Source: Halomicrobium urmianum
GTDB taxonomy: Archaea; Halobacteriota; Halobacteria; Halobacteriales; Haloarculaceae
DNA: 64,000 nucleotides
Assembly: GCF_020217425.1 (NCBI RefSeq)
Contig: NZ_CP084090.1
Location: 372,001-436,000 of the forward strand
Direction of reading: 5' to 3'
Under the pieces are notes generated by a model. The model was not told the DNA's origin. It was given only the letters and a program-made list of their open reading frames with translations, and did no database searches. Made by a program: the position numbers and the translations under genes. Positions 24,217 through 40,292 of this stretch are shown one piece after another (the first letter of the stretch is position 1; every line of letters starts with the position of its first letter).

Positions 24217-26721
24217 ATGGCTATCGACGATTCCGGGGGCGGGGGGGCAGAGCAGGTCGGCCAAAATAGAGACCTCGGGGAGGGCGAGTCCGCCGCGGTC
24301 GGGGAGTACACGTGGGACGACCTGCGGCGGGACCACCACGACGGGGGTCGGTTCGACCGCAGCGAGTACCTCGGGTTCGAACCGAAGCGCATCGGCGACA
24401 GACTGGAGACCGCCGCCGGGAACGCGGAGACGATCGACGAGGTGTTTCAGGCCTACGTCGATCCCGAGGCCACGCCGGTCGTCAAGGGAGTCTACACGTG
24501 GGAGCACTTCAAGCAGGAGTACTACTACGAGGATGACGGATCGCTCCCGCGGGACGGCGAGGGCGAGCAGATCCCCTTCGAACCGGAGGATCACCTCGGG
24601 TTCGACCCGGACGAGACGGAGAACAGGCTCTCGCACGGCGAAGACGCCGCCGTGACGCTTTCGAACCTCGTCGACGAGCGGACCGTCGACGTCAACGAGG
24701 ACCTTGACGAGGACGACTTCTTCTCCGATCAGGACGGCGATACGACGGTCGTCAACCGCTACGACCTCGAGAAGGCCGTCCCGATGTCCAAGAAGCGCCA
24801 CTTCACCGAGATCGAGCGCTACTGGGTCAACAAGCCCTACGCCTGCGTCGTCATCTTTCACTCGCGCAAGGAGAACGAGAAGAAGTACTACGTCGTCGAG
24901 CCCTACCTCAACGAGATCGAGGAGGACCTGGCGGAGTTCCTCTCCGGGAAGCTCAAGACCGCCATCAAGTACGCCGAGGACGACGTCATCGTCGAGGGGT
25001 CCGAGGCCGACCGCGCCGACGTGATCCAGCGCGAGGCCGAGCGGCTCCTAGAGCGGTACGACCTCTACGAGGGGGCGATCGGCGGCCTCGGGACGGTCGA
25101 CCAGGTCAAGGAACTACTGGGCATGGAGGTCCAGCGGCACGAGCCCGAGGACAGCCTGGAAGGGATCTCGGCCCGACCCGAGCCAGCGATCATCGAGGAC
25201 GACCCCGAGGAGCTCAACGAGTACCAGGTCGAGAAGTTGCTGTACAAGCTCAAGCGGGACTTCATCGGCTACGCGCGGATCGACCCCGTCAAGCACGACA
25301 TCAACGTCGAGGACGTCTCCTGCGACGGGTACAACTCCCGCGTGTTCGTCTACCACACCGACTACGAGCAGATCATCTCCAACGTCGAGCACGGCGAAGA
25401 GGAACTGGACGACTTCGTGGTCAAACTGGCCCAGCGCTCGGGCAAGGGTATCTCCAAGCGCCAGCCGCAGGTCGACGCCACGCTGCCGGACGGCTCCCGC
25501 GCCCAGCTGACGCTCGGCCGAGAGGTCTCAGACCACGGGACCAACTACACCATCCGCCAGTTCAAGGACGTCCCGTTCACGCCGATCGACCTCATCAACT
25601 GGAACACCTTCTCGCTGGACGAGATGGCGTTCCTGTGGCTCTGCATCGAGAACAACAAGAGCCTCATCTTCGCCGGGGGTACCGCTTCGGGGAAGACCAC
25701 CAGCCTGAACGCCGTCTCCCTGTTCATCCCCTCGAACGCGAAGATCGTCTCCATCGAGGACACCCGCGAGGTGGAACTGCCCCAGCGCAACTGGGTCGCC
25801 AGCGTCACCCGCCCGTCGTTCGGCGACGACGACACCGGCGACGTCGACGAGTTCGACCTGCTTGAGGCCGCGCTGCGCCAGCGGCCCGACTACATCGTCA
25901 TGGGCGAGATCCGCGGCGAAGAGGGTCGGACGCTGTTCCAGGTCATGTCGACCGGGCACACCACCTACACCACCTTCCACGCCGACTCCGTCGGCGAGGT
26001 GATCAAGCGGTTCACCACGGAGCCGATCAACGTCTCGAAGACGCTGTTCACGGCGCTGGACCTGGTCTCCATCCAGACCCAGACGCGCGTCGACGGCCGG
26101 AAGGTCCGCCGCAACAAGACGCTGACCGAGATCAACGAGTACACCGCCGAGAACGACGAGATCAACGTCCGCGACGTCTACGAGTGGCGCGCCGAGACGG
26201 ACGAGTTCATCCAGATGGGCAACTCCAACACCCTGGAGGAGATCAAGTTCGACCGCGGGTGGACCCAGGAGCGGCTCGACGAGGAGCTGTTCAAGCGGAA
26301 GGTGGTGCTGGCCTACCTCATCGAGAACGGCCTCAACACCTACACCGAGGTCGCGGCGACCATCCAGGCGTTCATCAACGATCCCGACACCATCCTGACG
26401 CTGATCGCCAACGACCAGCTCGCCCAGTCGCTTTCGGACCTCCGCGAGATGGAGAGCGTCAGCATCGACATCGACCAGGAGAAAGAGGAGATGGTCCCCC
26501 GGCCGGACGCACCCGACGAGATGCTCTCGGAGGCGGGCGACATCCTCGACAACGCCGGGCCGCTCTTTAACCGCTACCTGGAGATGGAGACGCCGGACAT
26601 CGTCTCGGCGCTGACCGGCATCGAGGACGACGGCGACGACGGCGGGGCCGCCGACGACGGGGACGGCATCGACTTCGGGCAGTTCGTCCCCAAGGCCGGC
26701 AAGGAGGCCGATAGCGAATGA
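24217..26721 (+). CDS. pilB: Type IV pilus assembly ATPase, PilB/GspE superfamily (834 aa)
   Basis: This cytoplasmic hexameric ATPase powers pilin extraction from the membrane and pilus assembly. Residues 1-230 are an acidic, haloarchaea-specific N-terminal region with two similar half-repeats (YTWDDLRRDHHDGGR and YTWEHFKQEYYYEDD). The ATPase core shows Walker A IFAGGTASGKTTSLNA (about 484-498), the Asp box VSIEDTREVELPQRNW, Walker B PDYIVMGEIRGEEG (about 556-569) and the His box STGHTTYTTFHADS (about 578-591). The stop overlaps the next gene's ATG (ATGA). Haloarchaea carry several pilB-pilC pairs, and which numbered pair this is cannot be said. Confidence 0.92.
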   Translation: MAIDDSGGGGAEQVGQNRDLGEGESAAVGEYTWDDLRRDHHDGGRFDRSEYLGFEPKRIGDRLETAAGNAETIDEVFQAYVDPEATPVVKGVYTWEHFKQEYYYEDDGSLPRDGEGEQIPFEPEDHLGFDPDETENRLSHGEDAAVTLSNLVDERTVDVNEDLDEDDFFSDQDGDTTVVNRYDLEKAVPMSKKRHFTEIERYWVNKPYACVVIFHSRKENEKKYYVVEPYLNEIEEDLAEFLSGKLKTAIKYAEDDVIVEGSEADRADVIQREAERLLERYDLYEGAIGGLGTVDQVKELLGMEVQRHEPEDSLEGISARPEPAIIEDDPEELNEYQVEKLLYKLKRDFIGYARIDPVKHDINVEDVSCDGYNSRVFVYHTDYEQIISNVEHGEEELDDFVVKLAQRSGKGISKRQPQVDATLPDGSRAQLTLGREVSDHGTNYTIRQFKDVPFTPIDLINWNTFSLDEMAFLWLCIENNKSLIFAGGTASGKTTSLNAVSLFIPSNAKIVSIEDTREVELPQRNWVASVTRPSFGDDDTGDVDEFDLLEAALRQRPDYIVMGEIRGEEGRTLFQVMSTGHTTYTTFHADSVGEVIKRFTTEPINVSKTLFTALDLVSIQTQTRVDGRKVRRNKTLTEINEYTAENDEINVRDVYEWRAETDEFIQMGNSNTLEEIKFDRGWTQERLDEELFKRKVVLAYLIENGLNTYTEVAATIQAFINDPDTILTLIANDQLAQSLSDLREMESVSIDIDQEKEEMVPRPDAPDEMLSEAGDILDNAGPLFNRYLEMETPDIVSALTGIEDDGDDGGAADDGDGIDFGQFVPKAGKEADSE

Positions 26722-28754
26722 GCATCGAGGCGAAAGGCAGCGAACAGCTCAGCGCCGGCGGCGCCCTCGGCGACACGTTCTACCCCGCCTTCCAGTACCT
26801 GTTCGACGAGGAGGGGGAGTTCGTCAGCAACGTCGAGGACAAGCTCGCCGAGGCCCGGATGGCCGACAACGTCGAGATGTTCCTCTCTCGGGCGCTCGCG
26901 GTCGGCGCCATCTCGGGGGTCTCCCTGTGGATCGTCGGTACCTTCATCGGCTACTTCCTCGTCACGCTCTTCTTCGGCGGCGGCGGCGAGTCGCTGGTGT
27001 TCATCGGCGTCCCGCTGCCGACCTGGGCGGAGCCGGTCGTCCGCGCCATCAAGCTCCCCGCGGTAATCGGCGTCACCGGCGTCGTCTTCGGGGCTATCGG
27101 CTTCGGCATCGGCTTCGGCTCCCTGATATCGATCCCCTACTTCCGTTCGAGCGCGCGCGAGCGCGAGATCAACGTCCTCCTCTCCGACGCCATCTCCTTC
27201 ATGTACGCGCTGTCCGTCGGCGGCCTCAACCAGCTGGAGATCCTCCAGGCGATGGCCAAGGCCGACGACACCTACGGCGAGTGCGCCAAGGAGTTCCAGT
27301 CCATCGTCCTCGAGACGGAGTACTTCGACACGGACTACCGGACCGCCATCCGCAACCAGGCGATGGAGACCCCCTCCGACGAGCTCTCGCAGTTCCTGAC
27401 GGACATGCTGTCGATCATCAACTCCGGCGGGGACATGACCACCTTCCTCGAGGACCAGAAGGACAAGCACATGCGCACCGCCAAGCAGGAGCAGCAGAAG
27501 ATGCTGGACACCCTGGAGCTGTTCGGCGAGATGTACATGACCCTCTCGCTGTTCCCGCTCCTGCTCATCATCATCCTCGTGATCATGTCGATGATGGGCA
27601 ACTCCCAGGAGATGCTCCTCTACGGCACGGTCTACGGCCTGATCCCGCTGACCGGTCTCGGCTTCCTCGTGCTGGTCTCGACGGTCACCCAGGACACCAT
27701 CGGCGACGGCTACCTCCGGCCCGACGGCAGCGAGGACGAACTCGTCGTCGACGACGGGCTGGGCATCCTCGACCTGGGCCGCATCGAGAACTACACCGGC
27801 GGATACGCCGTCTTCGACCGGATCAAGAGCCGCGAGGGGACCTACGAGCTGATGCAGATCGTCCGCAAGCCCCACCTGTTCTTCCGCGACCACCCGCTGA
27901 TGGTGCTCGGGCTGACGATCCCGCTGACCGTCGTCGCGGTCACGATGACCATCGCCTTCGACTGGGCGCCGCTGTCGATCGAGGGCATGACGTCCAATCC
28001 CGTCCGCGGGACCTTCTTCTGGGTGTATGTGCCGCTGTACATCAACCTGATCCCGCTGGCGGTCTTCTACGAGTGGAACGTCCGCTCGCGGAAGGCCATC
28101 ATCGGCAACCTCTCGGAGAACCTCCGGAAACTGGCCTCCGCGAACGACACGGGGATGACCCTGCTGGAGTCGATCAAGGTCGTCTCGGAGACCTCCGCCG
28201 GCAAGCTGGCCGACGAGTTCGAGGTCATGCACTCCAAGGTCAACTACGGCACCAACCTCAAGAACGCCCTCCGGGAGTTCAACAACAGCTACCACGTCCC
28301 GCGGCTGGCCCGGACGGTGAAGCTCATCAGCGAGGCTCAGGAGGCCTCCAGCCAGATCCAGGACGTCCTCTCGACGGCCGCCCAGGCCTCGGAGAACCAG
28401 GACGACATCGACCGCGAGCGCATCTCCCGGACGCGGATGCAGGTCGTCATCATCCTGATGACCTACCTCACGCTTCTGGGCGTCATGGCGCTGCTGAAGG
28501 CGCAGTTCCTCAGCGAGATGGCCGCGCTGGCCTCGCAGGGCGCCTCCAGCGGCGGCGGTGCCGGCCCGGCCGGCGGCTTCGGACAGAGTCTCGACACAGA
28601 CCTGCTGTCGATGCTGTTCTTCCACGCCGTCGTGATCCAGGCGATCCTCTCGTCCTTTATCGCCGGCTACATCCGGACCGTCAAGATCCTCGCCGGGGTC
28701 AAGTTCGCCGTGTTGCTCTCGACCGTCGCGCTCGTCGTCTGGATGGCGATCTAA
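26718..28754 (+). CDS. pilC: Type IV pilus membrane platform protein, PilC/TadC (T2SSF) family (678 aa)
   Basis: An integral membrane protein with two T2SSF domains. The first carries YFRSSAREREINVLLSDAIS and later QEQQKMLDTLELFGEMYMTL, the second RSRKAIIGNLSENLRKLASA and ENQDDIDRERISRTRMQVVI; each is followed by long hydrophobic helices. About nine transmembrane spans are visible in total. In pilus systems it is the platform on which PilB works. Coupled to pilB by a four-base overlap and followed three bases later by the first pilin-like gene, so the operon runs on. Confidence 0.92.
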   Translation: MSIEAKGSEQLSAGGALGDTFYPAFQYLFDEEGEFVSNVEDKLAEARMADNVEMFLSRALAVGAISGVSLWIVGTFIGYFLVTLFFGGGGESLVFIGVPLPTWAEPVVRAIKLPAVIGVTGVVFGAIGFGIGFGSLISIPYFRSSAREREINVLLSDAISFMYALSVGGLNQLEILQAMAKADDTYGECAKEFQSIVLETEYFDTDYRTAIRNQAMETPSDELSQFLTDMLSIINSGGDMTTFLEDQKDKHMRTAKQEQQKMLDTLELFGEMYMTLSLFPLLLIIILVIMSMMGNSQEMLLYGTVYGLIPLTGLGFLVLVSTVTQDTIGDGYLRPDGSEDELVVDDGLGILDLGRIENYTGGYAVFDRIKSREGTYELMQIVRKPHLFFRDHPLMVLGLTIPLTVVAVTMTIAFDWAPLSIEGMTSNPVRGTFFWVYVPLYINLIPLAVFYEWNVRSRKAIIGNLSENLRKLASANDTGMTLLESIKVVSETSAGKLADEFEVMHSKVNYGTNLKNALREFNNSYHVPRLARTVKLISEAQEASSQIQDVLSTAAQASENQDDIDRERISRTRMQVVIILMTYLTLLGVMALLKAQFLSEMAALASQGASSGGGAGPAGGFGQSLDTDLLSMLFFHAVVIQAILSSFIAGYIRTVKILAGVKFAVLLSTVALVVWMAI

Positions 28755-28756
28755 CG

Positions 28757-29385
28757 ATGCCGGGGGGTAGGGACCTGACGGAGACGGGGGACGCGGACCG
28801 CGGCCAGACGAACCTCGACTTCGTCATCGGCGTGAGCATCTTCGTGGTGGCGGTCATCGTCGCCGTCACGTTCGTGCCGGATCTGATCGGCGGCGTCGCC
28901 GGCACCGGCCAGTCGAACGGCGTCCTCGCGGACAGGGTGGCCTCGGATCTGGCAACGACGACCTCGGCCATCCCGCAGCGGCGGGTCGACTCCAGCTCGA
29001 CTGCACCGTGTCGCTGTTCAGCAGCTCGAAGGGGTTCTGCGGGCTCGACGACGGCGACCCCGCCGACAACCTCGAACAGGCGAGTTCAGTCAACGTCTCG
29101 CTGGTCTACAGGGAGCGGGCCTGCCGAGACGCGAGCAGTTCGGACATCGTCCCCGCCGACAGTTCCGACTGCGGCGACGAATCGGGCGACGCGACCCTCG
29201 ACAGGAACGTCCGGGCGTGCTACGAGGCGGACGCGGGACGGATCGTCCGGGAGGGATCCTGTTCCAGCACTGACGTCCTCCTGCTCGGCGGGCCGCAGCC
29301 GGGAAGCAGCCAGGACACCTCGATCGCCCGCCGGGGCGTTCAGCTGGACGGCAAACGGCTGATCCTGGAGGTGCGCACATGGTAG
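28757..29385 (+). pseudogene. Pilin-like gene, cassette 1 gene A (DUF7287-like), frameshifted
   Basis: The start reads MPGGRDLTETGDADRGQTNL followed by a hydrophobic helix, an N-terminus very like cassette 2 gene A (35484-36098). After LADRVASDLATTT the frame turns into Arg/Ser/Thr-rich nonsense, while the frame one base back continues with LGHPAAAGRLQLDCTVSLFS and ends GKRLILEVRTW. Adding a single C at 28961-28964 restores a 209-residue protein that aligns throughout with the intact 204-residue paralogue (LLGSPREPGVLDRECTVAFF there). So the reading frame is broken by one missing base: a true mutation, a sequencing error in a C run, or less likely a programmed shift. The restored product would be a minor pilin-like protein with one N-terminal transmembrane helix. 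Confidence 0.8.
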
Positions 29386-30014
29386 ACCGCGGCCAGGCGT
29401 ACACGCTGGAGGGGATCGTCGCCGCGCTGGTGGTGCTGGCCGGCGTCTTCTTCGCCATCCAGGCGACCACCGCGGCGCCCCAGGCCGCCGGCGCGTCCAG
29501 CCCCCACGCCGAGCAGCACGACCGCGCGCTGACCGCCAGCGCGCTCGTCGCCGCCGACGACGAGACGATCCGCGAGGCGCTGCTGTACTGGGACGGCAGC
29601 GCGTTCCACTGCACGACCGGCGAGTCGTACTACACCGGCGCGGCCGACGACGGCGGGGACTGTCCGTCCTCCGACGCCGTCCCGCCCCTCGACTTCGGCG
29701 AGTCCATCGCGGACGCCCTCGGCCCCAGGTACACGTACAACGTGATCCTCGCCTACAACGACACCACCGACAGGACGACCCGGCGGATGGTCTACCAGGG
29801 CGAACCCGGCGACGGCGCGATCCGGGCGACGACGACCGTCGTCCTGACCGACGGCCACAACCTCACGAGGGAGAACGGCGACGAGAGCGAGCAGCGCCTC
29901 GGCGAGAGCGGGAGCTTCTACGCGCCGGACCTGGAGACGGACGGCCCCTCCAGCGGCCGGGAGGAGTACCTCTACAACGTCGTCAGCGTGGAGGTGGTGG
30001 CGTGGCGCGCGTGA
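29379..30014 (+). CDS. Pilin-like protein, cassette 1 gene B (DUF7288-like, 211 aa)
   Basis: The N-terminus MVDRGQAYTLEGIVAALVVL is a short basic leader plus a hydrophobic helix, resembling a prepilin signal with the cut expected after RG. The extracellular domain contains two Cys near the middle and ends in YNVVSVEVVAWRA. It is paralogous to 36100-36702, with matching segments (EALLYWDGSAFH versus PTLLYWNNDSAEFH). It overlaps the preceding gene by seven bases and the next by 13, so translation is coupled. The family name is from memory; the role as a minor pilin is inferred from the helix and from pilB and pilC upstream. Confidence 0.82.
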   Translation: MVDRGQAYTLEGIVAALVVLAGVFFAIQATTAAPQAAGASSPHAEQHDRALTASALVAADDETIREALLYWDGSAFHCTTGESYYTGAADDGGDCPSSDAVPPLDFGESIADALGPRYTYNVILAYNDTTDRTTRRMVYQGEPGDGAIRATTTVVLTDGHNLTRENGDESEQRLGESGSFYAPDLETDGPSSGREEYLYNVVSVEVVAWRA

Positions 30015-30835
30015 CCGACCGCGGCCAGGCCCTGCTCGTCGGGGCCGTCGTCCTCGCCGTGGCCTTCCTCGGACTGGCGCTCGTGCTCAACGGCGCGATC
30101 TACGAGACGACCCTCTCGACGGAGGCCAGCGAGGACGTCAGCGGCAACGGCCTCGTGACGATTCAGGACGCCGTCCGCGGCGACGTGGCGACGGTGATAG
30201 AGCGGGCGGTGAACCGGAGCAGCGCTGCCGGCGATCAGAAAGCGTACGTCGAGGCGGCGTTCGAAGAGGGTCGCGTCGGGGCCAACTATACCCGTCAGTA
30301 CGCCGAGCGAGACGTCTTGGTGCGAGTTTCCTACAGCGATTCCCGGAACGGGAGCGTTGGCGAAGATCCCGACTTTACCACGCTGTCGTTCAGTGACCGG
30401 ATGCGCGTCTTCCGGATGACGTTCAATAATCTTGACGGCTCCGACCCGCTGACGGTATCCTTCGAGGACACCGACGGAAGCGAGTGGAACGTCACGGCCG
30501 ACGGGGACAGCGGTGAACTAACAGTCGATCCGCCGTCGGAGCCCGAGGTCACCTGCGCCAACAGCGAGCCCGACTACGTCGACTTCACGAACGGAAGCTA
30601 TCGGACCGGCTCGGGGATCGAACGCTGTCCGGCGTTGAACGTCCTCGCACATATGGACGGCGTCAATTCCATCGAAGCGCACAACGGGAGCCACGTGAGC
30701 TCCGGTAGTTACCGGTACTTCGTCAACGACGGGACGGACGACCGGATCTATCAGGTCAGCGTCGACCTCGTCGTCTACTCCGAATCGATCGACTACGAGG
30801 GGACGCTCCGGGTCGCCCCGGGTGAGCCGCGATGA
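30002..30835 (+). CDS. Pilin-like protein, cassette 1 gene C (DUF7261-like, 277 aa)
   Basis: GTG start, then MARVTDRGQALLVGAVVLAV and a single hydrophobic helix followed by LNGAIYETTLSTEASED, a pattern shared with 36690-37628 (DRGQILLVAALALAAVF, VNSAIFTENLASRGET). The large outer domain is rich in Asn-x-Ser/Thr sites (such as NRS, NGS, NVT) and would be N-glycosylated in a haloarchaeon. Both copies end in APGEP. The middle of this gene has a somewhat lower GC content than its neighbours. Inferred to be a minor pilin or pilus-associated protein. Confidence 0.82.
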   Translation: MARVTDRGQALLVGAVVLAVAFLGLALVLNGAIYETTLSTEASEDVSGNGLVTIQDAVRGDVATVIERAVNRSSAAGDQKAYVEAAFEEGRVGANYTRQYAERDVLVRVSYSDSRNGSVGEDPDFTTLSFSDRMRVFRMTFNNLDGSDPLTVSFEDTDGSEWNVTADGDSGELTVDPPSEPEVTCANSEPDYVDFTNGSYRTGSGIERCPALNVLAHMDGVNSIEAHNGSHVSSGSYRYFVNDGTDDRIYQVSVDLVVYSESIDYEGTLRVAPGEPR

Positions 30836-31314
30836 CGGGGTGGTCTCGCCGGGAGAGCGCGCGCGACCGCGCCGTCCAGACCACCGTCTCCTACGTCATC
30901 ACGGTCGGCATCGCGCTGGCGCTGGTCACCGGCCTGATCGCCGCGGGGACGACCATGGTCGAGGACCAGAACCGCCGCACAACGGAGTCCCAGCTTCGGA
31001 CCATCGGCCACCAGGTCGCCGGCACGCTCGAGCTCGCCGACCGCACGGTCCGGGCCAGCGACGACGTGGACACGCTGAACCTGACGGTCGATCTGCCCGA
31101 TCAGGTCGTCGGGTCGGAGTACTACGTCGACGTCGACAGCGACCTGGTGGCCGTCAGCGCCAGCGGCGTCGGCGTCTCCATGCCGGTCGACCACACCGCG
31201 GAGACGGACGTTCGCGACTCGCTGGGAAACGCCTCGGAGGGATCCTACGAGGGCGGGCGGCTGTACGTGACCTACGACACCGACGACGAGCACCTGAAGG
31301 TGAACGATGACTGA
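30832..31314 (+). CDS. Pilin-like protein, cassette 1 gene D (DUF7266-like, 160 aa)
   Basis: A short leader with RRESARDRAVQTTVSYVITV leads into one hydrophobic helix and the motif EDQNRRTTESQLRTIGHQVA, matching cassette 2 gene D (ARQDQVLRTELAVIGEQVAA). It overlaps its upstream neighbour by four bases and its downstream neighbour by eight. The outer part is a small acidic beta-rich domain. No prepilin-type RG site is as clear as in genes A-C, but the overall architecture is the same. Confidence 0.8.
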   Translation: MTGWSRRESARDRAVQTTVSYVITVGIALALVTGLIAAGTTMVEDQNRRTTESQLRTIGHQVAGTLELADRTVRASDDVDTLNLTVDLPDQVVGSEYYVDVDSDLVAVSASGVGVSMPVDHTAETDVRDSLGNASEGSYEGGRLYVTYDTDDEHLKVNDD

Positions 31315-32080
31315 CCGCGCACAGAGCGACACGCTCGGGTTCGTCCTGCTGTTCACCGTCCTCATCGCCTCGCTCGGCGTGGTCGCGACGGCCGGCGTCG
31401 GAACCCTCGAGTCCGGCCGGGACGTCGCGACCAGCCAGAACGTCGAGCAGTCCATGATCGAACTGGCCGGTGCCGGAACCGACGTCCACCGCGAGAACGT
31501 CTCCGTGCGCACCGCGCGGATGGGGCTGGGCAACGGCCAGCTCGAAGCGGGCGAGGAGACCGAGATCGCGGTCGAAGTAGACGGCAGTCCGGCGGATGTC
31601 GGCGGAACGAGGATCGACGGACTCGCCGTCCAGCCGATCACGTACAGCCTGGACGGACGGGCGGTCACCTACGAGGGAACTGCGGTCGTCAGGCACCAGG
31701 ACGGCGGCTCCGTGCTCGTTCGCGAGCCGGACTTCCACTTCGATCCCGACGGCGGCGTCGTCGCCGTACCGGTCGTCAACACGACGCTGGTCGGCGACGC
31801 CGACTCCGTCGGAGGCGGCAACGCCGAGGTCCGACTGCTTCGCGGCGACGCGAGTACCAGAATTACCGACAGCGCCACGTCGTTCACCCTCACCGTGGAT
31901 CCGCCGGCTGACCGGGTCGACGCCTGGAAAACGGCGCTGGAATCGTCCGCGGAGTCGAGCACCGATTGCAGCGAGGACGAGTCCAGCGGCACCGTCTCCT
32001 ACGAGTGTCCGTCACTGGGACCCGACGAGCCGACGATCGTTCTGCGGCTCGTCACCGTGGCGTTCGAGTTGAGCGGGTGA
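31307..32080 (+). CDS. Pilin-like protein, cassette 1 gene E (DUF7289-like, 257 aa)
   Basis: Begins MTDRAQSDTLGFVLLFTVLI, a single N-terminal helix, then GVGTLESGRDVATSQNVEQS and LAGAGTDVHRENVSVRTARM. The signature ITYSLDGRAVTYEGTAVVRH with QDGGSVLVREPDFHFD is shared with cassette 2 gene E (LTYEGGGVFRKNRYG) and with the long genes F1 and F2 (LAYQGGGIFEL). It is the last plus-strand gene of the cassette. The 126 bases after its stop, up to the convergent gene F1, hold only a GC-rich palindromic patch (CCCCGGGGTGGTCCCGGGGC at 32090-32109). Confidence 0.82.
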   Translation: MTDRAQSDTLGFVLLFTVLIASLGVVATAGVGTLESGRDVATSQNVEQSMIELAGAGTDVHRENVSVRTARMGLGNGQLEAGEETEIAVEVDGSPADVGGTRIDGLAVQPITYSLDGRAVTYEGTAVVRHQDGGSVLVREPDFHFDPDGGVVAVPVVNTTLVGDADSVGGGNAEVRLLRGDASTRITDSATSFTLTVDPPADRVDAWKTALESSAESSTDCSEDESSGTVSYECPSLGPDEPTIVLRLVTVAFELSG

Positions 32081-32206
32081 CTGCACCGACCCCCGGGGTG
32101 GTCCCGGGGCGAGGTACGGATCGCTTTCGGGACGCCGCGCTCGTAGAGCGAGTCGTAATCGCCGGAATCGGGACGAGACCAGACCCCGTGCCGAGGTTTC
32201 TACGGT

Positions 32207-34803
32207 TCAGGCGTCGTCGGCCGTCACTGTGGTCGTCGTGACGTGGAGGAAGCCGACCCGCTCGGACTGCGAGCCGCTGCCACCGCCGCCACCGCCGCCG
32301 ACGCCCGTCCTGGCTTCCAGGGTCTCGTCGAAGTGGATCTTCGCGTCGGTGTTGATGCTGTCCGATTCACCGACGATCGCACCGAACAGTTCGACCTGGT
32401 TCGTGAGCTGGTAATCCGTGCCCCCGCCGGAACCGTCCGCGCCGTACAGGACGCCGGTGATCGAGGCGCCACCGTTGGTGTTGATCCGGGCGCTCGGCAT
32501 GGTGTAGACGAGGAACTGGCTCGCGTTGTCGTTCTGCGTCGTTATCTCTGCCCCGCCACCGAACGTGATGTCGCCGCCGTCCATCGCGACTTCGATCCGT
32601 GCGTCGTCGTCCTGAACGTCGACGTTCGTGTCCTGTACGTCGAACGGGTGCCCGTTGACGTACACGTTGACCTGGCTCCCGTCTTCGACGTTGATCTCGC
32701 TGTTGCTGATCAGATTGACGCCTTCGCTCTCGACGGTGATGTTCACTTCACCGCCTCCCCGGACGTTGACCTCGCCGTCCTGCATCTCCCAGCCGTGGGA
32801 TCCCCCTTCGACGTGGATGTCGACGTCGCCGGAATCCGTCTCGACGTCCAGCCGTCCCCCGTCGGTGATCCGCATCTGGTCGAGGTGGTACTCGCCGGCG
32901 GAGAGCGTGCAGGGGTTCGACGGGGACCGGTCGCAACCGTCCCAGGTTTCGATGTCGCTGATGTCGCTATCACTATCACTGTCGGCGGGCTCCACCTCCA
33001 TGGATCGCACCGGGTCGATGAAGTCCTCGGCCGGCGCGTTCGACGGGATGTCCGGCGACCGCGGACTCGGGATGGACGGGGAGTCCGGCGTTCTGGGCGT
33101 GCCGCCGTCGCCCGACTCGCCCGTGACGGTCCCGCCCGCGACCACCTCGTGGTCGTCCTCGACGTCGCCGTACACGTAGACGTCGCCGCTCGCGTGCACG
33201 TCGCCGTCGACGGTCGCGCCGCTCTCGACGATCACGTCGCCGCCGGCGACGACGTCCGCGTCGTACGTGACCGTGGACTCGGAGTCGTTGACGTACACTG
33301 TCCCGGCCGCGTGCACTTCGCTCCACGAGTCCGAATTGTCGAACGAGACGCCGTCACCGATCTCGACGCTCCCGCCGGTCGAGACGATATCGCCCGTGAT
33401 CTCGGCGTCGCGTTCCGCCCCGGATTCGTTGAGGTCGATCGGTCCGCTGGCCACGACCGAGCCGTCGATCCCACCGCTGTTGTGGACGTAGAAGTCGTTC
33501 CCGTTGTCCATCAGCGCGCCGTTCACGTAGATCGATCCGTCCACGGTCGCCGCGTGGAGCTGGACGAAGTCCCCGCCCACGATGACGTCGTCGCCGATGG
33601 TCACCAGGTTGGATACGCCCGTCCCCATATCGAACGCGTCCGCGACGGAGACGCTCCCCCCGAACTCGCCGCTGTTGTCGACGTCGGACGAGCCGCCGAT
33701 AGTGGCGTCCCCGTGGACGACGAAGGAATTCGTTCCGACGAAGTCGCCACCGACTTCGAGGTCGCCACCGATCTCCGGACTCTCGGAGAGGTCGATAGTA
33801 CCGGTCGCGACGACGTCCCCGTTCGTCCGGCGCGGGAACGAAGCGGCCGTCGGATAGCCGCCGGCGTCCGAGCGATAGCTGTCGATCCGGCCGACGTTCG
33901 TGATCGACCCTGACCCGGTGAACATGACCCCGGTAATCGGACCAGCGGCAACCCCGCCGCCGGGCGGCGACGACCCGTCCCGTTCGAGCGTCACCTCGCC
34001 GTCGCCGTCGTCGTAGGTCACGCTCCCGTCCGTCCGACGCTCGAACGTCGTCCCCCAGGCGCGGTAGAACTCGCTTCGGACGGTGATCTTGACGGTGTAG
34101 TCCTCCTGCACCGGGTTTCGAAGTGCCTCCGGCGAGACGGTGCTGTCGGGTACGTCGCTCGTGTCGTCCTCGAGGCAACTCGCGCTCGGGAACCCTCGCT
34201 GCTGGCTGCCCGTCTTGCTGAGCGAGATGTCGCTTCCCGTCGCGTCGCCGTCGATGCGGACGAGCGGCAACGAGAGTGTCTGCTGTCCGTTCCGGTACTG
34301 GTACTGGAAGCCGGGCGCGGAGACGACGGAGCTGTCGTCGGCGCCCGCCGCCAACTCGAAGATGCCGCCACCCTGATACGCGAGCGTCTGGCCGCCCTGC
34401 TCGTAGATCACTCGTCCGAGGGGCTGGGCGGTGACTTCGTCGTCGCCATCGCCGTCAGTGTCCGCTATCCGACCCACGACGGTACAGACGGTTGGTCGGG
34501 CTCGCCCCGTCCGGATCAGTGATCTGAACGGTCACGTTTCCCTTCCCGCTCTGTACCCTCGCCCTTCCGTCTCCGAGGTTCGCCATCGAGACGCTCTCCT
34601 TCGAACCTGACACCACCTGCGCGAGGTCGGCGTCGAGCCGCTGGAACGACGCGCGCACCGACTCCATCGACGTCGCCTGCTGGCGGTCCTCGAGAGCCTG
34701 CGCCCCCACGACGACCACGGTCACGGAGACCACGATCACGATGGCGAACAGCAACGTCACACCCAGGACGTGTGACTGTCCACGCCCCCTCGTTCGACTC
34801 CAC
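32207..34803 (-). pseudogene. Long pilin-like/beta-helix protein, cassette 1 gene F, with two frameshifts
   Basis: The start reads VESNEG in one frame, continues as RGQSHVLGVTLLFAIVIV in a second, and as VGRIADTDGDGDDEV in a third. Removing one G from the five-G run at 34785-34789 and one from the four-G run at 34505-34508 gives a continuous protein of about 864 residues. It has a prepilin-like N-terminus, a DUF7289-like domain (LAYQGGGIFEL), a long series of bactofilin-like beta-helix turns (such as GDVIVESGATVDGDVHASGD), a Pro/Ser linker, and a C-terminal domain (GASITGVLYGADG, LFGAIVGESDS, VGFLHVTTTT) like DUF7305 of bacterial pilin-associated proteins. The same end occurs in gene F2 (38871-40292), which is intact. 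Sequencing error in homopolymers is an alternative to real decay. Confidence 0.8.
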
Positions 34804-34805
34804 TA

Positions 34806-34836
34806 TATCTTAGTATTAGTTGATTATAGTCTGTAG
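34806..34836 (-). promoter_or_regulatory. AT-rich promoter region of gene F1
   Basis: On the minus strand the bases before the GTG at 34803 read TATAATCAACTAATACTAAG followed by ATATAG. The AT block is strongly different from the surroundings and lies at TATA distance from the start. Confidence 0.4.
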
Positions 34837-34936
34837 ACTAATGCCTGTCGGTCGTTAGCACGATTGGTGAGGTAGTAGACAGATCAGCTGCGGAAATGAC
34901 AGTCAGGTAGTCTGAGCGCGAAGACGTCGGCCACAT

Positions 34937-35020
34937 TATAGTAGGAATTGAAACTATTTGCACGTCGAAGGGCATCCGTGGTTCCCTTCGAGTGTGTCAG
35001 TGCGTTCAATTTCTACTATA
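34937..35020. repeat. 84-bp near-palindromic element, copy 1
   Basis: The element starts TATAGTAGGAATTGAAACTA and ends GTTCAATTTCTACTATA; the two arms (about 34 bases each) are inverted repeats of one another around a short centre (GGGCATCCGTGGTTCCC). An almost identical element in the opposite orientation lies at 50899-50981. Repeated palindromes of this kind are usually miniature mobile elements or ends of transposons. No coding capacity. Confidence 0.75.
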
Positions 35021-35066
35021 GCTACAGCCTCACACGGCTGTCTGAGTTCCTTCATCCTCCCCACTG

Positions 35067-35082
35067 TGGACTCGCCGGGATT
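35067..35082 (-). repeat. tRNA-Ala 3'-end fragment, copy 1 (att-like)
   Basis: TGGACTCGCCGGGATT is an exact copy of the last 16 bases of the adjacent tRNA-Ala gene (35234-35249 in the same orientation). Such duplicated tRNA 3' ends are usually left by integrase-mediated insertions. Confidence 0.7.
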
Positions 35083-35141
35083 CCCGTGAGCGGAGCGAAC
35101 GGGAAGACGGTGAGGGAACGAGACGAACCAGATGAGTCGAG

Positions 35142-35155
35142 TGGACTCGCCGGGA
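35142..35155 (-). repeat. tRNA-Ala 3'-end fragment, copy 2 (att-like)
   Basis: TGGACTCGCCGGGA is a second exact copy, 14 bases, of the tRNA-Ala 3' end, 75 bases after the first fragment and 92 bases before the true tRNA end. It continues into unrelated sequence (CTGAGCGAAACC). Confidence 0.65.
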
Positions 35156-35233
35156 CTGAGCGAAACCGGAGGCTTCGCGAAGGTCGGCGAGTTCACGAAC
35201 GACTGACGAAGCGAAGCGGCGGAAGGAAGTGAG

Positions 35234-35305
35234 TGGACTCGCCGGGATTTGAACCCGGGGCCTTCCCCGTGCCAGGGGGATGATCTACCACTGATCTACG
35301 AGCCC
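35234..35305 (-). tRNA. tRNA-Ala (anticodon GGC)
   Basis: The minus strand folds into a complete 72-base cloverleaf: acceptor GGGCTCG pairing with CGAGTCC, D-arm GATC-AGTGGTA-GATC, anticodon stem TCCCC/GGGGA around loop CTGGCAC (anticodon GGC, reading GCC and GCT alanine codons), T-arm CCGGG-TTCAAAT-CCCGG and discriminator A. No intron and no encoded CCA. A TATA box lies about 30 bases upstream. The gene sits exactly between the two pilin cassettes and its 3' end is duplicated twice nearby. Confidence 0.97.
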
Positions 35306-35329
35306 TCGCACCCTATCGTATCCGGCGGG

Positions 35330-35342
35330 TTTTCTTAAACCC
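35330..35342 (-). promoter_or_regulatory. tRNA-Ala promoter
   Basis: Minus strand GGGTTTAAGAAAA is a strong TATA box about 27-35 bases before the first base of the tRNA. Confidence 0.6.
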
Positions 35343-35483
35343 ATCGAAGGCGGGACTCCCGTGCCAGATGGTGACGGGGCGCCGCCCGTCGGACTGTTCA
35401 GTCCGTCTTCAATTACTGATACTCGGAGACCAATTAGCCACAACGGATAAGAGCGAGCGGACGATGATCAACGGAAGGAAGTC

Positions 35484-36098
35484 GTGTCCGACGAAGCGCG
35501 TGCGTCGAGGGAGTCAGAATCAACGAATGTAACGCGGCCGGTCCGCACTGAGAGCGCCGGCCGCGGGCAGACGACGCTGGATTTCGCCATCGGGACGAGC
35601 CTGTTCCTGGGCATCGTGTTGCTGGTCTTCCTGTTCGTGCCCGGGGCGCTGGATCCGTTTACGCAGGGTGCCCAGGCGGAGACGGTGACGGCCGATCGCG
35701 TGGCCGACGACCTGGCCTACGGGCTCCTGGGGTCGCCGCGTGAGCCGGGCGTGCTCGACCGCGAGTGCACGGTCGCGTTCTTCGCCAACGAATCGCCCGG
35801 CGAGTGCCGGTTCGAGGGAGCGACGACCCACGAGCGGCTGGGGCTGTCGGACCGCAGGGGCGTCAACGTCACCGTCCGGGGGAACGTCTCGGGCGCACCG
35901 GACGGACCGAACCGGCTCTGCTGGAACGGGGACGACACCCGGCTCGCCGAGACCGACGACGGGGACTGCGGGTCGAGCGACGACGTCGCTCTGACGGCGG
36001 GCGATCCCCTGACGCAGACGGACACCTCGACGGTGACCGCCGTGCGAACCGTATCGCTGTTCCGAACGGACGTCACGATCCTGGTGGAGATGTGGTAA
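35484..36098 (+). CDS. Pilin-like protein, cassette 2 gene A (DUF7287-like, 204 aa)
   Basis: The GTG start opens a 28-residue charged leader, then RGQTTLDFAIGTSLFLGIVL: a prepilin-like site followed by one hydrophobic helix. Cys residues are scattered in the outer domain (DRECTVAFF, GECRF, NRLCWNG, DDGDCG). The end TVSLFRTDVTILVEMW matches the end of cassette 1 gene A after its frame is repaired. It heads a five-gene run with tiny gaps or overlaps. There is no ATPase or platform gene with this cassette, so the products would have to use the pilB-pilC machinery upstream, or another set elsewhere. Confidence 0.85.
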   Translation: MSDEARASRESESTNVTRPVRTESAGRGQTTLDFAIGTSLFLGIVLLVFLFVPGALDPFTQGAQAETVTADRVADDLAYGLLGSPREPGVLDRECTVAFFANESPGECRFEGATTHERLGLSDRRGVNVTVRGNVSGAPDGPNRLCWNGDDTRLAETDDGDCGSSDDVALTAGDPLTQTDTSTVTAVRTVSLFRTDVTILVEMW

Positions 36099-36099
36099 C

Positions 36100-36702
36100 G
36101 TGGGGCTGAAAATCATGGATGGAGACCGCGGGCAGGCGCACACGCTGGAGGCCATCGTGGCGGGGCTACTGCTGCTCAGCAGCGTCGTCTACGCGCTCCA
36201 GATGACGGCGGTGACGCCGCTATCAGCGAGCACGTCGAGCCAGCACATCGAGAACCAGCAGTCGTCGGTGGCGCGGGGCGTCCTGGCGGCGGCGGCCGAG
36301 CGGGACGCCCTGAGGCCGACCCTGCTCTACTGGAACAACGACTCCGCCGAGTTCCACGGGGCCCCGGGGACGGGCTATTACACCACGGGGCCACCGAACA
36401 CCACCTTCGGCGGCATGCTGGAGCGGGCGTTCGACGACGCCGCCATCGCGTACAACGTCGACGTCCGCTACCGGACGACCGACGGCGACGTGGCGCGCAA
36501 GCCGATGGTCCACCGCGGCGTCCCCAGCGACAACGCGGTGCGGTCGGCCCGCGCCGTCACGCTGACCGACGACGACCGACTGGTCGACCCCGACGGGTCG
36601 CGCAACGTGACGGTCGCCGAGTCGTCGACGTTCTACGCGGACGACCTGAACGGCACCGTCTACAACGTGGTCCGCGTGGAGGTGGTCGCGTGGCGCATCT
36701 GA
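36100..36702 (+). CDS. Pilin-like protein, cassette 2 gene B (DUF7288-like, 200 aa)
   Basis: MDGDRGQAHTLEAIVAGLLL contains the RG/Q prepilin-like junction and the start of the membrane helix. The start may be GTG 36100, one base after the preceding stop, or ATG 36115, which gives an N-terminus like that of gene B1. It ends YNVVRVEVVAWRI, almost the same as B1. The outer domain has several N-glycosylation sequons (such as NDS, NTT, NVT, NGT). Confidence 0.83.
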   Translation: MGLKIMDGDRGQAHTLEAIVAGLLLLSSVVYALQMTAVTPLSASTSSQHIENQQSSVARGVLAAAAERDALRPTLLYWNNDSAEFHGAPGTGYYTTGPPNTTFGGMLERAFDDAAIAYNVDVRYRTTDGDVARKPMVHRGVPSDNAVRSARAVTLTDDDRLVDPDGSRNVTVAESSTFYADDLNGTVYNVVRVEVVAWRI

Positions 36703-37628
36703 ACGGGGACCGCGGTCAGATCCTCCTCGTCGCCGCCCTGGCGCTGGCGGCCGTGTTCGTCCTGCTGACGGTCGTGGTCAACTCTGCCATCTTCACGGAG
36801 AACCTCGCGAGTCGGGGCGAGACGGTCGGCAGCGACGAGGCGCTCGCGCTCCGGGCCGCGGTGGTCGATAACGTCGGCGAGACGGTCGCGTACGCGAACC
36901 GGCACAACAACAGCGACTACGACGCGCTCGCACGGAACGTGACGGCTGAGACGGCCAACGTCAGCGCGGCGCTGAGCCGTCACTACGTCGCCGACGGCGT
37001 CGTCGTCGAGGTCACCGGCCCCAACGAGTTCGCCAACGGCACCCGAATCGTCGACGAGAACGAGAGCGGGTCGACCTTCGCGGGGGCCGACGGCAGCGTC
37101 GCGAACTGGACCGTGGCGACGGACGTGGACGGCGTCCGCGCCTACAGGCTCAACGTCTCGAACGGCAGCGTCAGTACGTTCGGCTCCGACGACGCGTTCT
37201 CACTGACCGTCGAGAACGACACCGCCGAGTGGCGAGCGAACTTCACGAGGAAATCGGGTACGTTCACCGTCGGCGTGGACGGAACGTCCGACGACGGGAC
37301 GTGTCAGGTCGCCGGCTCGCCCGAGTACGTCCGCGTCGACCTGACCGAGGGCACCGTCGCGGGCGAGCCCTGTGCGCCGCTGCAGTTCGCCCGGGACGTC
37401 TCGTCGCCCTACGACGTCAGCTACCGCAACGGCGACGCGGTGAGCGGGAACTACTCGCTGGTAGTGAACGAGAGCGGGCACAGCAACGACAACCTGACCG
37501 ACACGGCGGGCACGGACGATCCGTACGTTCACGACGCCGTCTACTCGGCCGACGTCCGGTACCGCTACGACGGACCGCAACTGCACTACGAGACGAACGT
37601 CACCGTCGCCCCGGGTGAGCCGGAATGA
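36690..37628 (+). CDS. Pilin-like protein, cassette 2 gene C (DUF7261-like, 312 aa)
   Basis: GTG start overlapping gene B2 by 13 bases, exactly as in cassette 1. After AHLNGDRGQILLVAALALAA comes one helix and VVNSAIFTENLASRGETVGS, homologous to C1. The outer domain is longer than in C1 (312 versus 277 residues) and carries many N-x-S/T sites, consistent with a glycosylated surface protein. It ends TVAPGEPE, overlapping gene D2 by four bases. Confidence 0.83.
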   Translation: MAHLNGDRGQILLVAALALAAVFVLLTVVVNSAIFTENLASRGETVGSDEALALRAAVVDNVGETVAYANRHNNSDYDALARNVTAETANVSAALSRHYVADGVVVEVTGPNEFANGTRIVDENESGSTFAGADGSVANWTVATDVDGVRAYRLNVSNGSVSTFGSDDAFSLTVENDTAEWRANFTRKSGTFTVGVDGTSDDGTCQVAGSPEYVRVDLTEGTVAGEPCAPLQFARDVSSPYDVSYRNGDAVSGNYSLVVNESGHSNDNLTDTAGTDDPYVHDAVYSADVRYRYDGPQLHYETNVTVAPGEPE

Positions 37629-38083
37629 CGGACCGGGCCGTCTCGTCGGCGCTGAACTACGCGCTGACGCTCGCGATCGCGACGCTGCTGGTCACCGGGC
37701 TGTTGATCGCGGGCATCGACTTCGTCGAGGCCCGACAGGACCAGGTGCTCAGGACGGAGCTGGCGGTGATCGGCGAGCAGGTCGCGGCCGACCTCGACCG
37801 CGCGAATCGGCTCGCGGCGGCCGGCGACGGGACCACGGCGGTGTGGATCAACCAGTCGTTCCCCGAGCGCGTCGCCGGGGCCCGGTACTGGGTGCGGCTC
37901 GAACCGGAGACGGGGTCGGAGCCGCCCCGGGTCGTCGTGGAGGCGACCGATCCCGCAGTGACGGCCGCGGTCCGGCTCAAGCAAACCGTGACGGTCGCCG
38001 AGTCGCGGACGGACGGGGGCGACGTGGCCGTCGTGTATAACGACAGCGGCGACCCGTCGACGCTGGAGGTGGCCGATGGCTGA
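37625..38083 (+). CDS. Pilin-like protein, cassette 2 gene D (DUF7266-like, 152 aa)
   Basis: MTDRAVSSALNYALTLAIAT and a single N-terminal helix are followed by FVEARQDQVLRTELAVIGEQ, the conserved stalk of the family. The remaining 90 residues are a small acidic domain. Paralogue of 30832-31314. The eight-base overlap with the next gene is also conserved between the cassettes. Confidence 0.82.
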   Translation: MTDRAVSSALNYALTLAIATLLVTGLLIAGIDFVEARQDQVLRTELAVIGEQVAADLDRANRLAAAGDGTTAVWINQSFPERVAGARYWVRLEPETGSEPPRVVVEATDPAVTAAVRLKQTVTVAESRTDGGDVAVVYNDSGDPSTLEVADG

Positions 38084-38819
38084 CCGGGCCGCCAGCGAGG
38101 TGCTGAGCTTCGCCATGGTGTTCGCGCTGGTCCTCGCGTCAGTGACCGTGGTGTCCGTCGGCGGGCTGGAGAGCCTCCAGACGGCGAGGGACGCCGAGCA
38201 ACTGGACAACGCCGAGCGGGCCTTTGACGTCCTCGCTGACAACTTCCGCGACGTCCACCAGCGGGGCGCGCCCAGTCGGGCGACGGAGATCAGCCTCGGC
38301 TCCGGCGAGCTGTACACCGGCGCGAACGTGACCGTCGAGGTCTCGGCCAACCGGAGCGACGGCGGGTGGGACAACGTCAGCCGCGAGGTCAGGCCGCTCG
38401 TGTACGGGGGCGAGAACGAGCGGGTCCTGACATACGAGGGCGGCGGGGTGTTCCGCAAGAACCGGTACGGCGGCCGCGCGCTGGTCGACCCGCCCTTCGT
38501 GTTCCGGGACGACCGCGTCCTGCTGACGCTGGTGGCGCCGCAGACCTCGACCGTCGAGAGCCACGGCGACGCGACGGTGCTGGTGCGGACGAACCGCGAG
38601 GACAGGGCCGTCCCGATCCACGGCGGCGACTACGACGACGTCTACCTCAACGTCACCTCGCCCCGGCGGAACCAGTGGCAGCGGTACCTGCGGACCGAGA
38701 CCGAGGCCGCGAACTGCGGTCCGAACGGCGACGACGAGGCGTACGTGGTCTGTCGGTACGACGATCCGGGGCAGCTCCACGTCGTGGTCTACGACCTCGG
38801 GCTGACCATCGAACGGTAG
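38076..38819 (+). CDS. Pilin-like protein, cassette 2 gene E (DUF7289-like, 247 aa)
   Basis: MADRAASEVLSFAMVFALVL with a single helix, then SVGGLESLQTARDAEQLDNA and ATEISLGSGELYTGANVTVE. The segment VLTYEGGGVFRKNRYGGRAL is the hallmark shared with genes E1, F1 and F2. It ends the plus-strand run; gene F2 converges on it after 51 bases. Confidence 0.83.
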   Translation: MADRAASEVLSFAMVFALVLASVTVVSVGGLESLQTARDAEQLDNAERAFDVLADNFRDVHQRGAPSRATEISLGSGELYTGANVTVEVSANRSDGGWDNVSREVRPLVYGGENERVLTYEGGGVFRKNRYGGRALVDPPFVFRDDRVLLTLVAPQTSTVESHGDATVLVRTNREDRAVPIHGGDYDDVYLNVTSPRRNQWQRYLRTETEAANCGPNGDDEAYVVCRYDDPGQLHVVVYDLGLTIER

Positions 38820-38870
38820 TCGACTCAGCTGCCTCGATCTGGCGCTATCCGCCGGTGGTTCGACGGGGCG

Positions 38871-40292
38871 CTATCCGTCGGTGATCTCGACCGGGTTCTC
38901 GGAGACGTGGAGGAAGGTGATGTAGATGACGTCGTCGCCGTTGAGGCTCAGCGAAGTGTCCTCGATGGCCTCGTCGTAGGTGAACTCGTTGGGATTGCCG
39001 TTGATGTCCATCGTCTGGCAGACGGCACCGCCCGTCAGGTTCGCGTTCCCGTTCAGGTCGCAGGTCGACCCCGGCGCGTAAATGAGGCCGACGTACTCGG
39101 CCTCCCCGTTGAAGTCGACCTCGCCGTCGGAGTGGACGGCCGTCTCCATGTTGCCGGCGTCGCCCTCGACGACGTTCACCTCTTCGCCGCCGTCGACGAC
39201 GAAGTCGTTCCTGACGTACACCGATACGGACTCGTCGTCGTCGACCGCCTCGAGCGTGACGTTTGTCGGCTCGTAGGCGCCGTCGACGAGGATGGTGACG
39301 TTGCCGTCCGGATCCTCGACGGTCAGCGACCCGTCGAAGGTACCGTCGTGGATGTACCAGCCGGCGCTGGTGACGGTGTCTCCCTCGGAAACGTCCGTGC
39401 AGTTGTCACCCCCACAGTCCGCGATGGCGTCCTCGATGCGGCTGTCGATCGTCGGGTAGTTCATCCCCTCGTCGTAGGGCTCCGGCGGGTCGTGGTTACC
39501 GTTGACCGTGACGCCGGCCTCGCTCGTCGTGGCTACGGCGTTCTCGTAGCTCTCGTTGATCGGGACGATCAGTTCCGCTCGCACCGTGTCCGCGGTGTGG
39601 TTGTAGTAGACCTTGCCGTCCGTCCGCTCGTCGAAGTAGCTCCCCCACGCCCGGTAGTACCGACTGCTGACGGTGACGTTGATCCGGCCTTCCCTGAGGG
39701 GGTTAGTCCGGTCCGCAGCGCGGTCTGGGAAGTGCTGGGTCGACGAGCCGTCCTTCCGGACGACGACCTGCCCGTCGAGCGACCGGTCGCCGGAGACGGT
39801 CACCAGCGGGAGCGTCAGCGTGGCGTCCCGATAGTGGAACTCCGGCGGCGAGATCATGCGGGCGCCGCCGGGACCGCCGCGCCAGACGCCGCCGCCCTGG
39901 TAGGCGATAGTCCGCTCGCCGTCGTCGTACGTGACCGCGCCGAGCGTGACGTCCATGAGCGACCTCGTGTCGCCGGTGCTCTCGTTCGTGACGGTGACGT
40001 TCATCCGCCCGGCGCCGCCGTGGACCCGATAGCTCGCGTCGCCGGCCTGCGAGAGCGGAACGCGCGTCTGCCGGGAGTTCCCCAGCGCCACGAGCGCCGT
40101 CTGCGAATCGAACTGCGTGAGCCCCTTCTCGGCCCGCTCGACGTCCAGCGACTGGCGGGTGTCGAGGATGGCCGACCCGCCGACGGTGACCACGAGCGCC
40201 GCCCCCGCGAGGACCATCGAGAGCACGAGGAGCACCCCCAGCGGCTCCGACTGCGCGCGCCCGTCGCCCTCGCTGCCCGCGCCGAATATCAT
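38871..40292 (-). CDS. Long pilin-like protein, cassette 2 gene F (DUF7289 + DUF7305-like, 473 aa)
   Basis: The N-terminus EGDGRAQSEPLGVLLVLSMV gives one membrane helix after a short leader. Residues about 60-230 are the DUF7289-like domain (RTIAYQGGGVWRGGPGGARM). The rest is a beta-rich domain ending AEYVGLIYAPGSTCDLNGNA, LTGGAVCQTMDINGN and VIYITFLHVSENPVE, the same C-terminal module as F1 but without the long run of beta-helix turns, so it is about 390 residues shorter. The gene is intact. It is transcribed toward gene E2, as F1 is toward E1. Confidence 0.83.
   Translation of the reverse strand: MIFGAGSEGDGRAQSEPLGVLLVLSMVLAGAALVVTVGGSAILDTRQSLDVERAEKGLTQFDSQTALVALGNSRQTRVPLSQAGDASYRVHGGAGRMNVTVTNESTGDTRSLMDVTLGAVTYDDGERTIAYQGGGVWRGGPGGARMISPPEFHYRDATLTLPLVTVSGDRSLDGQVVVRKDGSSTQHFPDRAADRTNPLREGRINVTVSSRYYRAWGSYFDERTDGKVYYNHTADTVRAELIVPINESYENAVATTSEAGVTVNGNHDPPEPYDEGMNYPTIDSRIEDAIADCGGDNCTDVSEGDTVTSAGWYIHDGTFDGSLTVEDPDGNVTILVDGAYEPTNVTLEAVDDDESVSVYVRNDFVVDGGEEVNVVEGDAGNMETAVHSDGEVDFNGEAEYVGLIYAPGSTCDLNGNANLTGGAVCQTMDINGNPNEFTYDEAIEDTSLSLNGDDVIYITFLHVSENPVEITDG

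Follow-up and report, generated by a model that had tools for sequence, protein, structure and literature searches.

Why does a single type IV pilus locus carry two six-gene sets of pilin-like genes? This question is raised by a 64,000-nucleotide stretch of the Halomicrobium urmianum genome (contig NZ_CP084090.1, positions 372,001 to 436,000; the window). In this stretch the genes for a PilB-family assembly ATPase and a PilC/TadC-like platform protein are followed by one such set (cassette 1, genes A1 to F1) and, beyond a gene for tRNA-Ala, by another (cassette 2, A2 to F2; Table 1). We consider it probable (about 0.7), from sequence comparisons, that this is a haloarchaeal type IV pilus locus in which the motor, pilB-pilC, stays fixed and the cassette of six pilins can be exchanged. 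The comparisons show that the locus of the Haloarculaceae usually has two cassette slots flanking the tRNA-Ala gene, that the cassettes in the two slots belong to old, different types, and that whole cassettes were replaced in place between nearly identical flanks.

Like Layout and Distant Kinship

The two cassettes agree in gene order, in strands (A to E on the forward strand, F on the reverse strand), and in overlaps (13 bases for B/C, 4 for C/D, and 8 for D/E). Only cassette 1 adjoins pilB and pilC, which lie upstream of it, and the tRNA gene separates cassette 2 from them; on these points the coordinates agree with the initial annotation. Each A to F pair also belongs to one Pfam family (DUF7287, DUF7288, DUF7261, DUF7266, DUF7289, and DUF7289 plus DUF7305, respectively). 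The initial annotation had proposed a tandem duplication of a complete set, with the members of each pair as closest relatives of each other. The alignments contradict this view. The pairs A1/A2 to E1/E2 are far from closest kin: for all 11 queries, drawn from both cassettes, the partner in the same genome ranked 20th to 95th among the 93 to 107 homologues matched. Sisterhood of the two window cassettes was rejected by an approximately unbiased (AU) test with p = 1e-43.

A phylogenetic tree of 85 cassettes places cassette 2 in a clade of 33, which we read as Haloarculaceae. Cassette 1 groups with cassettes from G041, a genome of the same genus, and from G050 and G002. It lies outside a clade of 19 in which most of the family's other cassettes next to pilBC are found. 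A position of the slot-1 cassettes of the window and of G041 inside the type-1 clade was also rejected, with an AU p of 0.002 that calls for caution in view of the long branches. The tree represents 85 of 108 cassettes, the other 23 being loci dropped by choice as redundant; the AU tests used 52 rows. A tree of pilBC was built from 51 loci after a similar redundancy drop and a length cut-off.

Cassette Exchange next to pilBC

In the pilBC tree, which tracks genus, the window and its six congeners form one group; the branching of the cassettes does not track genus. The congeners G041 and G059 share 98.1% protein identity in pilBC and 22.0% in the slot-1 cassette. Their DNA is 96.6% identical over 4918 bp up to the stop codon of pilC, shows no match over the next 5.9 kb, and resumes at 94% identity from a copy of the tRNA 3′ end onward. 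The right edge of this exchange starts on an extra copy of a 14-bp tRNA 3′-end core (L098:13489), 133 bp from the tRNA gene. Among the 30 pairs with at least 95% identity in pilBC, the median cassette identity is 89.8%, and only G041 vs G059 and G041 vs G114 fall below 80%. This comparison covers the 65 of 80 loci with pilC in which B and D were close enough to be paired. It includes, in the top pilBC bin, a pair (L038 and L099) that is apparently one genome entered twice, so that its rows partly duplicate others.

A second swap is seen in slot 2 of Haloarcula, where G084 and G106 share 91% identity in the left flank, about 68% in the cassette, and 92% in the right flank. G084 and G055 share 88% in cassette 2, 95% in the left flank, and 71–73% in the F gene of slot 1, which is located between these two parts. 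Because these two pairs differ in different slots, the slots can change independently, and F can change while its neighbours do not. Ten loci of genus g13 can be sorted into groups with unlike cassettes, all of them at one pilBC site.

A tRNA Gene between Two Cassette Slots

DUF7287, the family of A, is present in 137 of 145 genomes of the class. At least two matches occur in 20 of 28 genomes of the window's family and in 10 of 117 genomes elsewhere (the three matches in G000 represent two genes). A tRNA-Ala gene in antisense orientation lies just upstream of A in 29 of 33 slot-2-type cassettes, as compared to 1 of 66 other cassettes, a count from which eight redundant loci were left out. Since a single cassette directly follows pilBC in many other haloarchaea examined, the interval between pilC and the tRNA gene (slot 1) is probably the ancestral cassette position.

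Occupancy of the slots varies. In Haloarcula rara, slot 1 is empty: pilC and the tRNA gene are about 180 bases apart. Cassette 1 of the window differs in kind from the slot-1 cassette of most congeners. Comparison of seven genomes of the genus revealed two full sets in G059, G138, G146, and G114 and only one complete set in the window, G041, and G145. G041 has lost B2 to E2 and most of F2 by deletion; the F2 stump overlaps the end of A2 (L098:14373-14867). G145 contains no slot-1 pilins; its slot 1 is occupied by foreign genes in a low-GC insert, with a gene for a nucleotidyltransferase domain (PF01909; L106:7534-8689). The open reading frame downstream of this gene, devoid of Pfam matches, is by eye possibly HEPN-like, and the two perhaps form a toxin-antitoxin pair. 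In G050, a genome with three DUF7287 matches, an open frame of 2296 residues with four CARDB stretches is located beside the cassette genes (L115:1436-8323).

The tRNA-Ala Gene as an Integration Site

In G114 (H. katesii), about 44 kb are inserted at the 3′ end of the tRNA gene, between the cassettes (L103:17083 to L102:9136). This integrative element has a duplicated core of 14 bp and a gene for a tyrosine integrase near the junction; it also carries an MCM helicase. The window contains three copies of the core, at 35067, 35142, and 35234, all of them beside the tRNA gene, and extra copies beside the tRNA gene are also found in G041 and G145. We considered the cassette itself as an integrative element and rejected this option: the core lies on the tRNA side only, with no left attachment (att) copy. 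Since no copy was found near pilC in the window, the cassette is not such an element; among the cassette genes, Pfam searches gave no match to an integrase family.

Two observations invite a more far-reaching idea: the G041/G059 exchange has its right edge on an additional copy of the core, and extra cores are present in the window, G041, and G145. The interval between pilC and tRNA-Ala could be a dedicated exchange platform, at which integrase traffic at the 14-bp core repeatedly opens, empties, and refills slots and thereby re-tips one motor with foreign, pre-fitted tip complexes. We regard this extension as unlikely.

Layout of the Locus and Broken Genes in Cassette 1

The initial assignment of minor-pilin-like sets beside one pilB-pilC pair is supported by the Pfam families (Table 1): as in other archaeal type IV pilus loci, a PilB-family ATPase and a PilC/TadC platform adjoin pilin-like genes. 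E and F are also paralogues of each other, since both contain DUF7289. The small subunits of archaeal type IV pilus loci are expected to carry a class III signal motif, [KR][GA] ahead of a hydrophobic helix. Candidate motifs of this kind were seen by eye in the translations (F1 has no in-frame start). The imperfect inverted repeat between F1 and the tRNA gene (34935-35021, arms of about 17 bases) could be the remnant of a small mobile element.

Table 1. Genes and other features of the two-cassette pilus locus, in window coordinates
Feature	Position	Strand	Basis or remark
pilB (T2SSE; PilB3_C), assembly ATPase	24217..26721	+	Pfam E 4e-31
pilC, platform protein (T2SSF/TadC-like), bounding slot 1 on the left	26718..28754	+	Pfam E 7e-27
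A1, DUF7287, pilin-like, frameshifted at ~28955-28988	28757..29385	+	Pfam, tblastn, codon scan
B1, DUF7288	29379..30014	+	Pfam E 6e-45
C1, DUF7261	30002..30835	+	Pfam E 3.5e-7
D1, DUF7266	30832..31314	+	Pfam E 1e-18
E1, DUF7289	31307..32080	+	Pfam E 4e-41
F1, DUF7289 + DUF7305, broken near 34785 (start region) and near 34490	32207..34803	-	
Imperfect inverted repeat	arms 34935-34952 and 35005-35021		low-GC gap (0.53)
Extra copy of 14-bp tRNA 3′-end core, TGGACTCGCCGGGA	35067..35080		
Further extra copy of 14-bp core	35142..35155		
tRNA-Ala(GGC), integration target, divider of slots 1 and 2	35233..35305	-	ARAGORN
A2, DUF7287	35484..36098	+	Pfam E 1e-39
B2, DUF7288	36100..36702	+	Pfam E 6e-64
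C2, DUF7261	36690..37628	+	Pfam E 4e-10
D2, DUF7266	37625..38083	+	Pfam E 2e-23
E2, DUF7289	38076..38819	+	Pfam E 9e-64
F2, DUF7289 pilin part + DUF7305, predicted beta-solenoid	38871..40292	-	Pfam; model

A to F had been listed as genes in both copies. This description holds for cassette 2, which is intact, and for B1 to E1; neither A1 nor F1 is an open reading frame. The matches of A1 to DUF7287 are spread over two frames, and the tblastn hits of A2 fall in frames 1 and 3. In F1, the matches to DUF7289 are likewise divided between two frames. The frame encoding its pilin helix has no start codon, and a run of five C (34785-34789) lies near the GTG at 34803; the second frame change is at about 34490. 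Given these disruptions, cassette 1 is probably a decaying, dead set. A codon-usage scan of the whole window, in which every frame switch within one strand was then checked, revealed no further broken gene; a switch flagged at 3679 turned out to separate two ordinary genes. Because the host genome (4.25 Mb, 6 contigs) contains five matches to T2SSE-family ATPases and cassette 1 is probably dead, the single assembly machine initially suggested for both cassettes is unproven.

Predicted Structures of D2 and F2

The model of D2 comprises an N-terminal helix of 63 residues and a seven-strand head, with a predicted local distance difference test (pLDDT) score of 89.8. Its best VIA-align match is a chain of a type II secretion system pseudopilus, with a weak Z of 5.5 that may reflect only a common arrangement. 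A Foldseek search with D2 against the PDB gave no significant match (best E 0.3). In the model of F2 (pLDDT 82), residues 246-442 form a predicted beta-solenoid. VIA-align matched this solenoid to ice-binding proteins (Z 16.9) and, among pilins, to the Thermus competence pilin ComZ (Z 11.5; root-mean-square deviation 3.4 over 174 residues); Foldseek with F2 against the PDB reached an E of only 0.011. F2 is predicted to be a pilin with a ComZ-like beta-solenoid. The slot-1 F proteins of several relatives, with about 1300 residues, contain CARDB and in some cases Fn3- or Ig-like modules on a DUF7289 base. If these variable parts are exchangeable binding domains, F would have the appearance expected of a tip adhesin.

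Alternative Explanations

Could the two cassettes have arisen by duplication? If the whole cassette had been duplicated in tandem in this lineage and had then diverged, as first supposed, the common layout and the single Pfam family for each pair would be explained. Yet the partner ranks, the rejected sisterhood, and the clustering of cassette 2 with 32 other slot-2-type cassettes of Haloarculaceae rule out a recent event and make this explanation highly improbable. A duplication in the ancestor of the Haloarculaceae, with a fast-diverging slot-1 copy and no exchange, would fit the higher frequency of at least two DUF7287 matches in this family; cassette 1 of the window would then be a fast-evolving type-1 cassette that long branches may have misplaced. 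Rate, however, cannot explain G041 and G059, in which flanks of 96% DNA identity enclose cassettes of 22% protein identity, and the AU test (p = 0.002) separates the window and G041 cassettes from the type-1 clade. We therefore consider an ancestral duplication quite unlikely. The system pilE/pilS is known for exchange with a silent reservoir; neither gene conversion nor exchange of this kind was seen between the slots, and slot-1 and slot-2 types keep separate clades.

The two cassettes could also serve two different pili or pseudopili that are used simultaneously, as a division of labor with shared PilB-PilC. The four congeners with two full sets are consistent with this explanation, as is the unlike domain type of F between the slots of these relatives (CARDB/Ig vs DUF7305). 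The three genomes of the genus with one complete set argue against it, and we judge it possible but on the improbable side. The frameshifts in A1 and F1 might also be artifacts of sequencing, with a functional cassette 1, an option that we judge rather improbable. One break does sit in a homopolymer of five and B1 to E1 are open, but both broken genes lie within one 6-kb cassette of a window with no further broken gene. Several observations nevertheless weigh against exchange behind a fixed motor as we describe it. Retention of both full sets in four of seven genomes of the genus implies that the sets are not simply alternatives. The unlike slot-1 F genes next to similar second cassettes in G055 and G084 imply that F can move alone. 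Near-identical flanks on both sides are found in two swaps only, and the breaks in A1 and F1 could be assembly errors. Finally, cassette 1 of the window shares no more than 36% identity with its closest relative; its arrival is therefore old, and its placement rests on long branches.

Proposed Model and Its Implications

Exchange of cassettes behind a fixed motor leads to the following model. The products of A to E would form a pilus tip or initiation complex, and F, with a binding domain that can be swapped, would act as the tip adhesin. The six genes would tend to travel as a set because their products are mutually fitted. Replacement may proceed through recombination between the conserved flanks (pilBC and tRNA), and mobile-element traffic at the tRNA gene may help to open or empty a slot. 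The likely selective gain would be an altered surface for adhesion or virus recognition with an unchanged motor. Of the interchangeable pilus tips initially envisaged, something like alternative tips is supported. Excerpts from a study on Sulfolobus islandicus report virus resistance from pilin deletions (PMC7217056).

With this model, a group of uncharacterised DUF families gains a testable interpretation, that of one pilus motor with exchangeable tip sets. G041 and G059 are natural relatives with common locus flanks and unlike cassettes, and pairs of this type could reveal whether the pilus tips of archaea determine the choice of surfaces or of mating partners, or the sensitivity to viruses. 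As far as our literature searches reach, the placement of two slots around a tRNA gene that serves as integration target in Haloarculaceae, the independent changes of the slots, the probably decaying cassette in the window genome, and the solenoid reading of F are new. These searches found no paper naming the six DUFs; among the arCOGs tried, the only paper to name any was Makarova 2016, and for Halomicrobium mukohataei the matches listed contained nothing useful.

Comparison with Known Systems

The initial annotation held that these families have no described function. As loci they seem to have been described, according to the excerpts available: the present locus resembles the PilB4-type pilus locus (PMC4858521), and alternative cassettes at what we take to be the same locus are reported in Halorubrum (PMC11078007). 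The haloarchaeal PilB4-type locus in Figure 4B of Makarova 2016 likewise combines pilB-pilC with several pilins of its own. In the same excerpt, arCOG02911 appears as a signature minor pilin that varies in length and tends to be duplicated, a description that, by our own mapping, would fit DUF7289. In-place exchange and a tRNA-flanked second slot distinguish the present locus from the PilB4-type locus as described there. ComZ, the competence pilin of Thermus thermophilus (PMC6561018, in part), carries a large solenoid on a pilin as predicted for F2, a likeness of predicted structure. Replacement flexible genomic islands are also gene clusters for exposed structures that are swapped between conserved flanks, and they have been attributed to homologous recombination and phage pressure (PMC4033161, in part). 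Unlike in these islands, what is replaced here is a defined set of six pilin genes, and the motor in front of it stays the same.

The closest parallel may be found in the homeocassettes of Halorubrum ezzemoulense, where Islands 25 and 26 (PMC11078007, in part) are alternative cassettes at what we take to be the same locus. In genus g13, which we infer to be Halorubrum, pilBC is followed by such a cassette in 10 of 10 loci examined, and an AlaRS-like editing gene (PF01411/PF07973) flanks the cassette in both loci checked. Homeocassettes are different islands between near-identical core genes, with at least half of their genes homologous (Feng 2024). The flanks of G041 and G059 are 94–97% identical in DNA (those of the window itself are only about 82% identical to congeners), and A to F occur in both islands. 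With regard to mutual exclusion between the genomes of a species, the comparison covers G041 and G059, each of which has only two DUF7287 matches, one in slot 1 and one in slot 2. The present locus departs from the published homeocassettes in that a tRNA-Ala gene lies between two slots, the slot-2 cassettes form a clade of their own, one cassette is probably decaying, and integration at the tRNA gene is established for a congener. The best reading of the H. urmianum locus is that of a two-slot relative of the Halorubrum homeocassettes.

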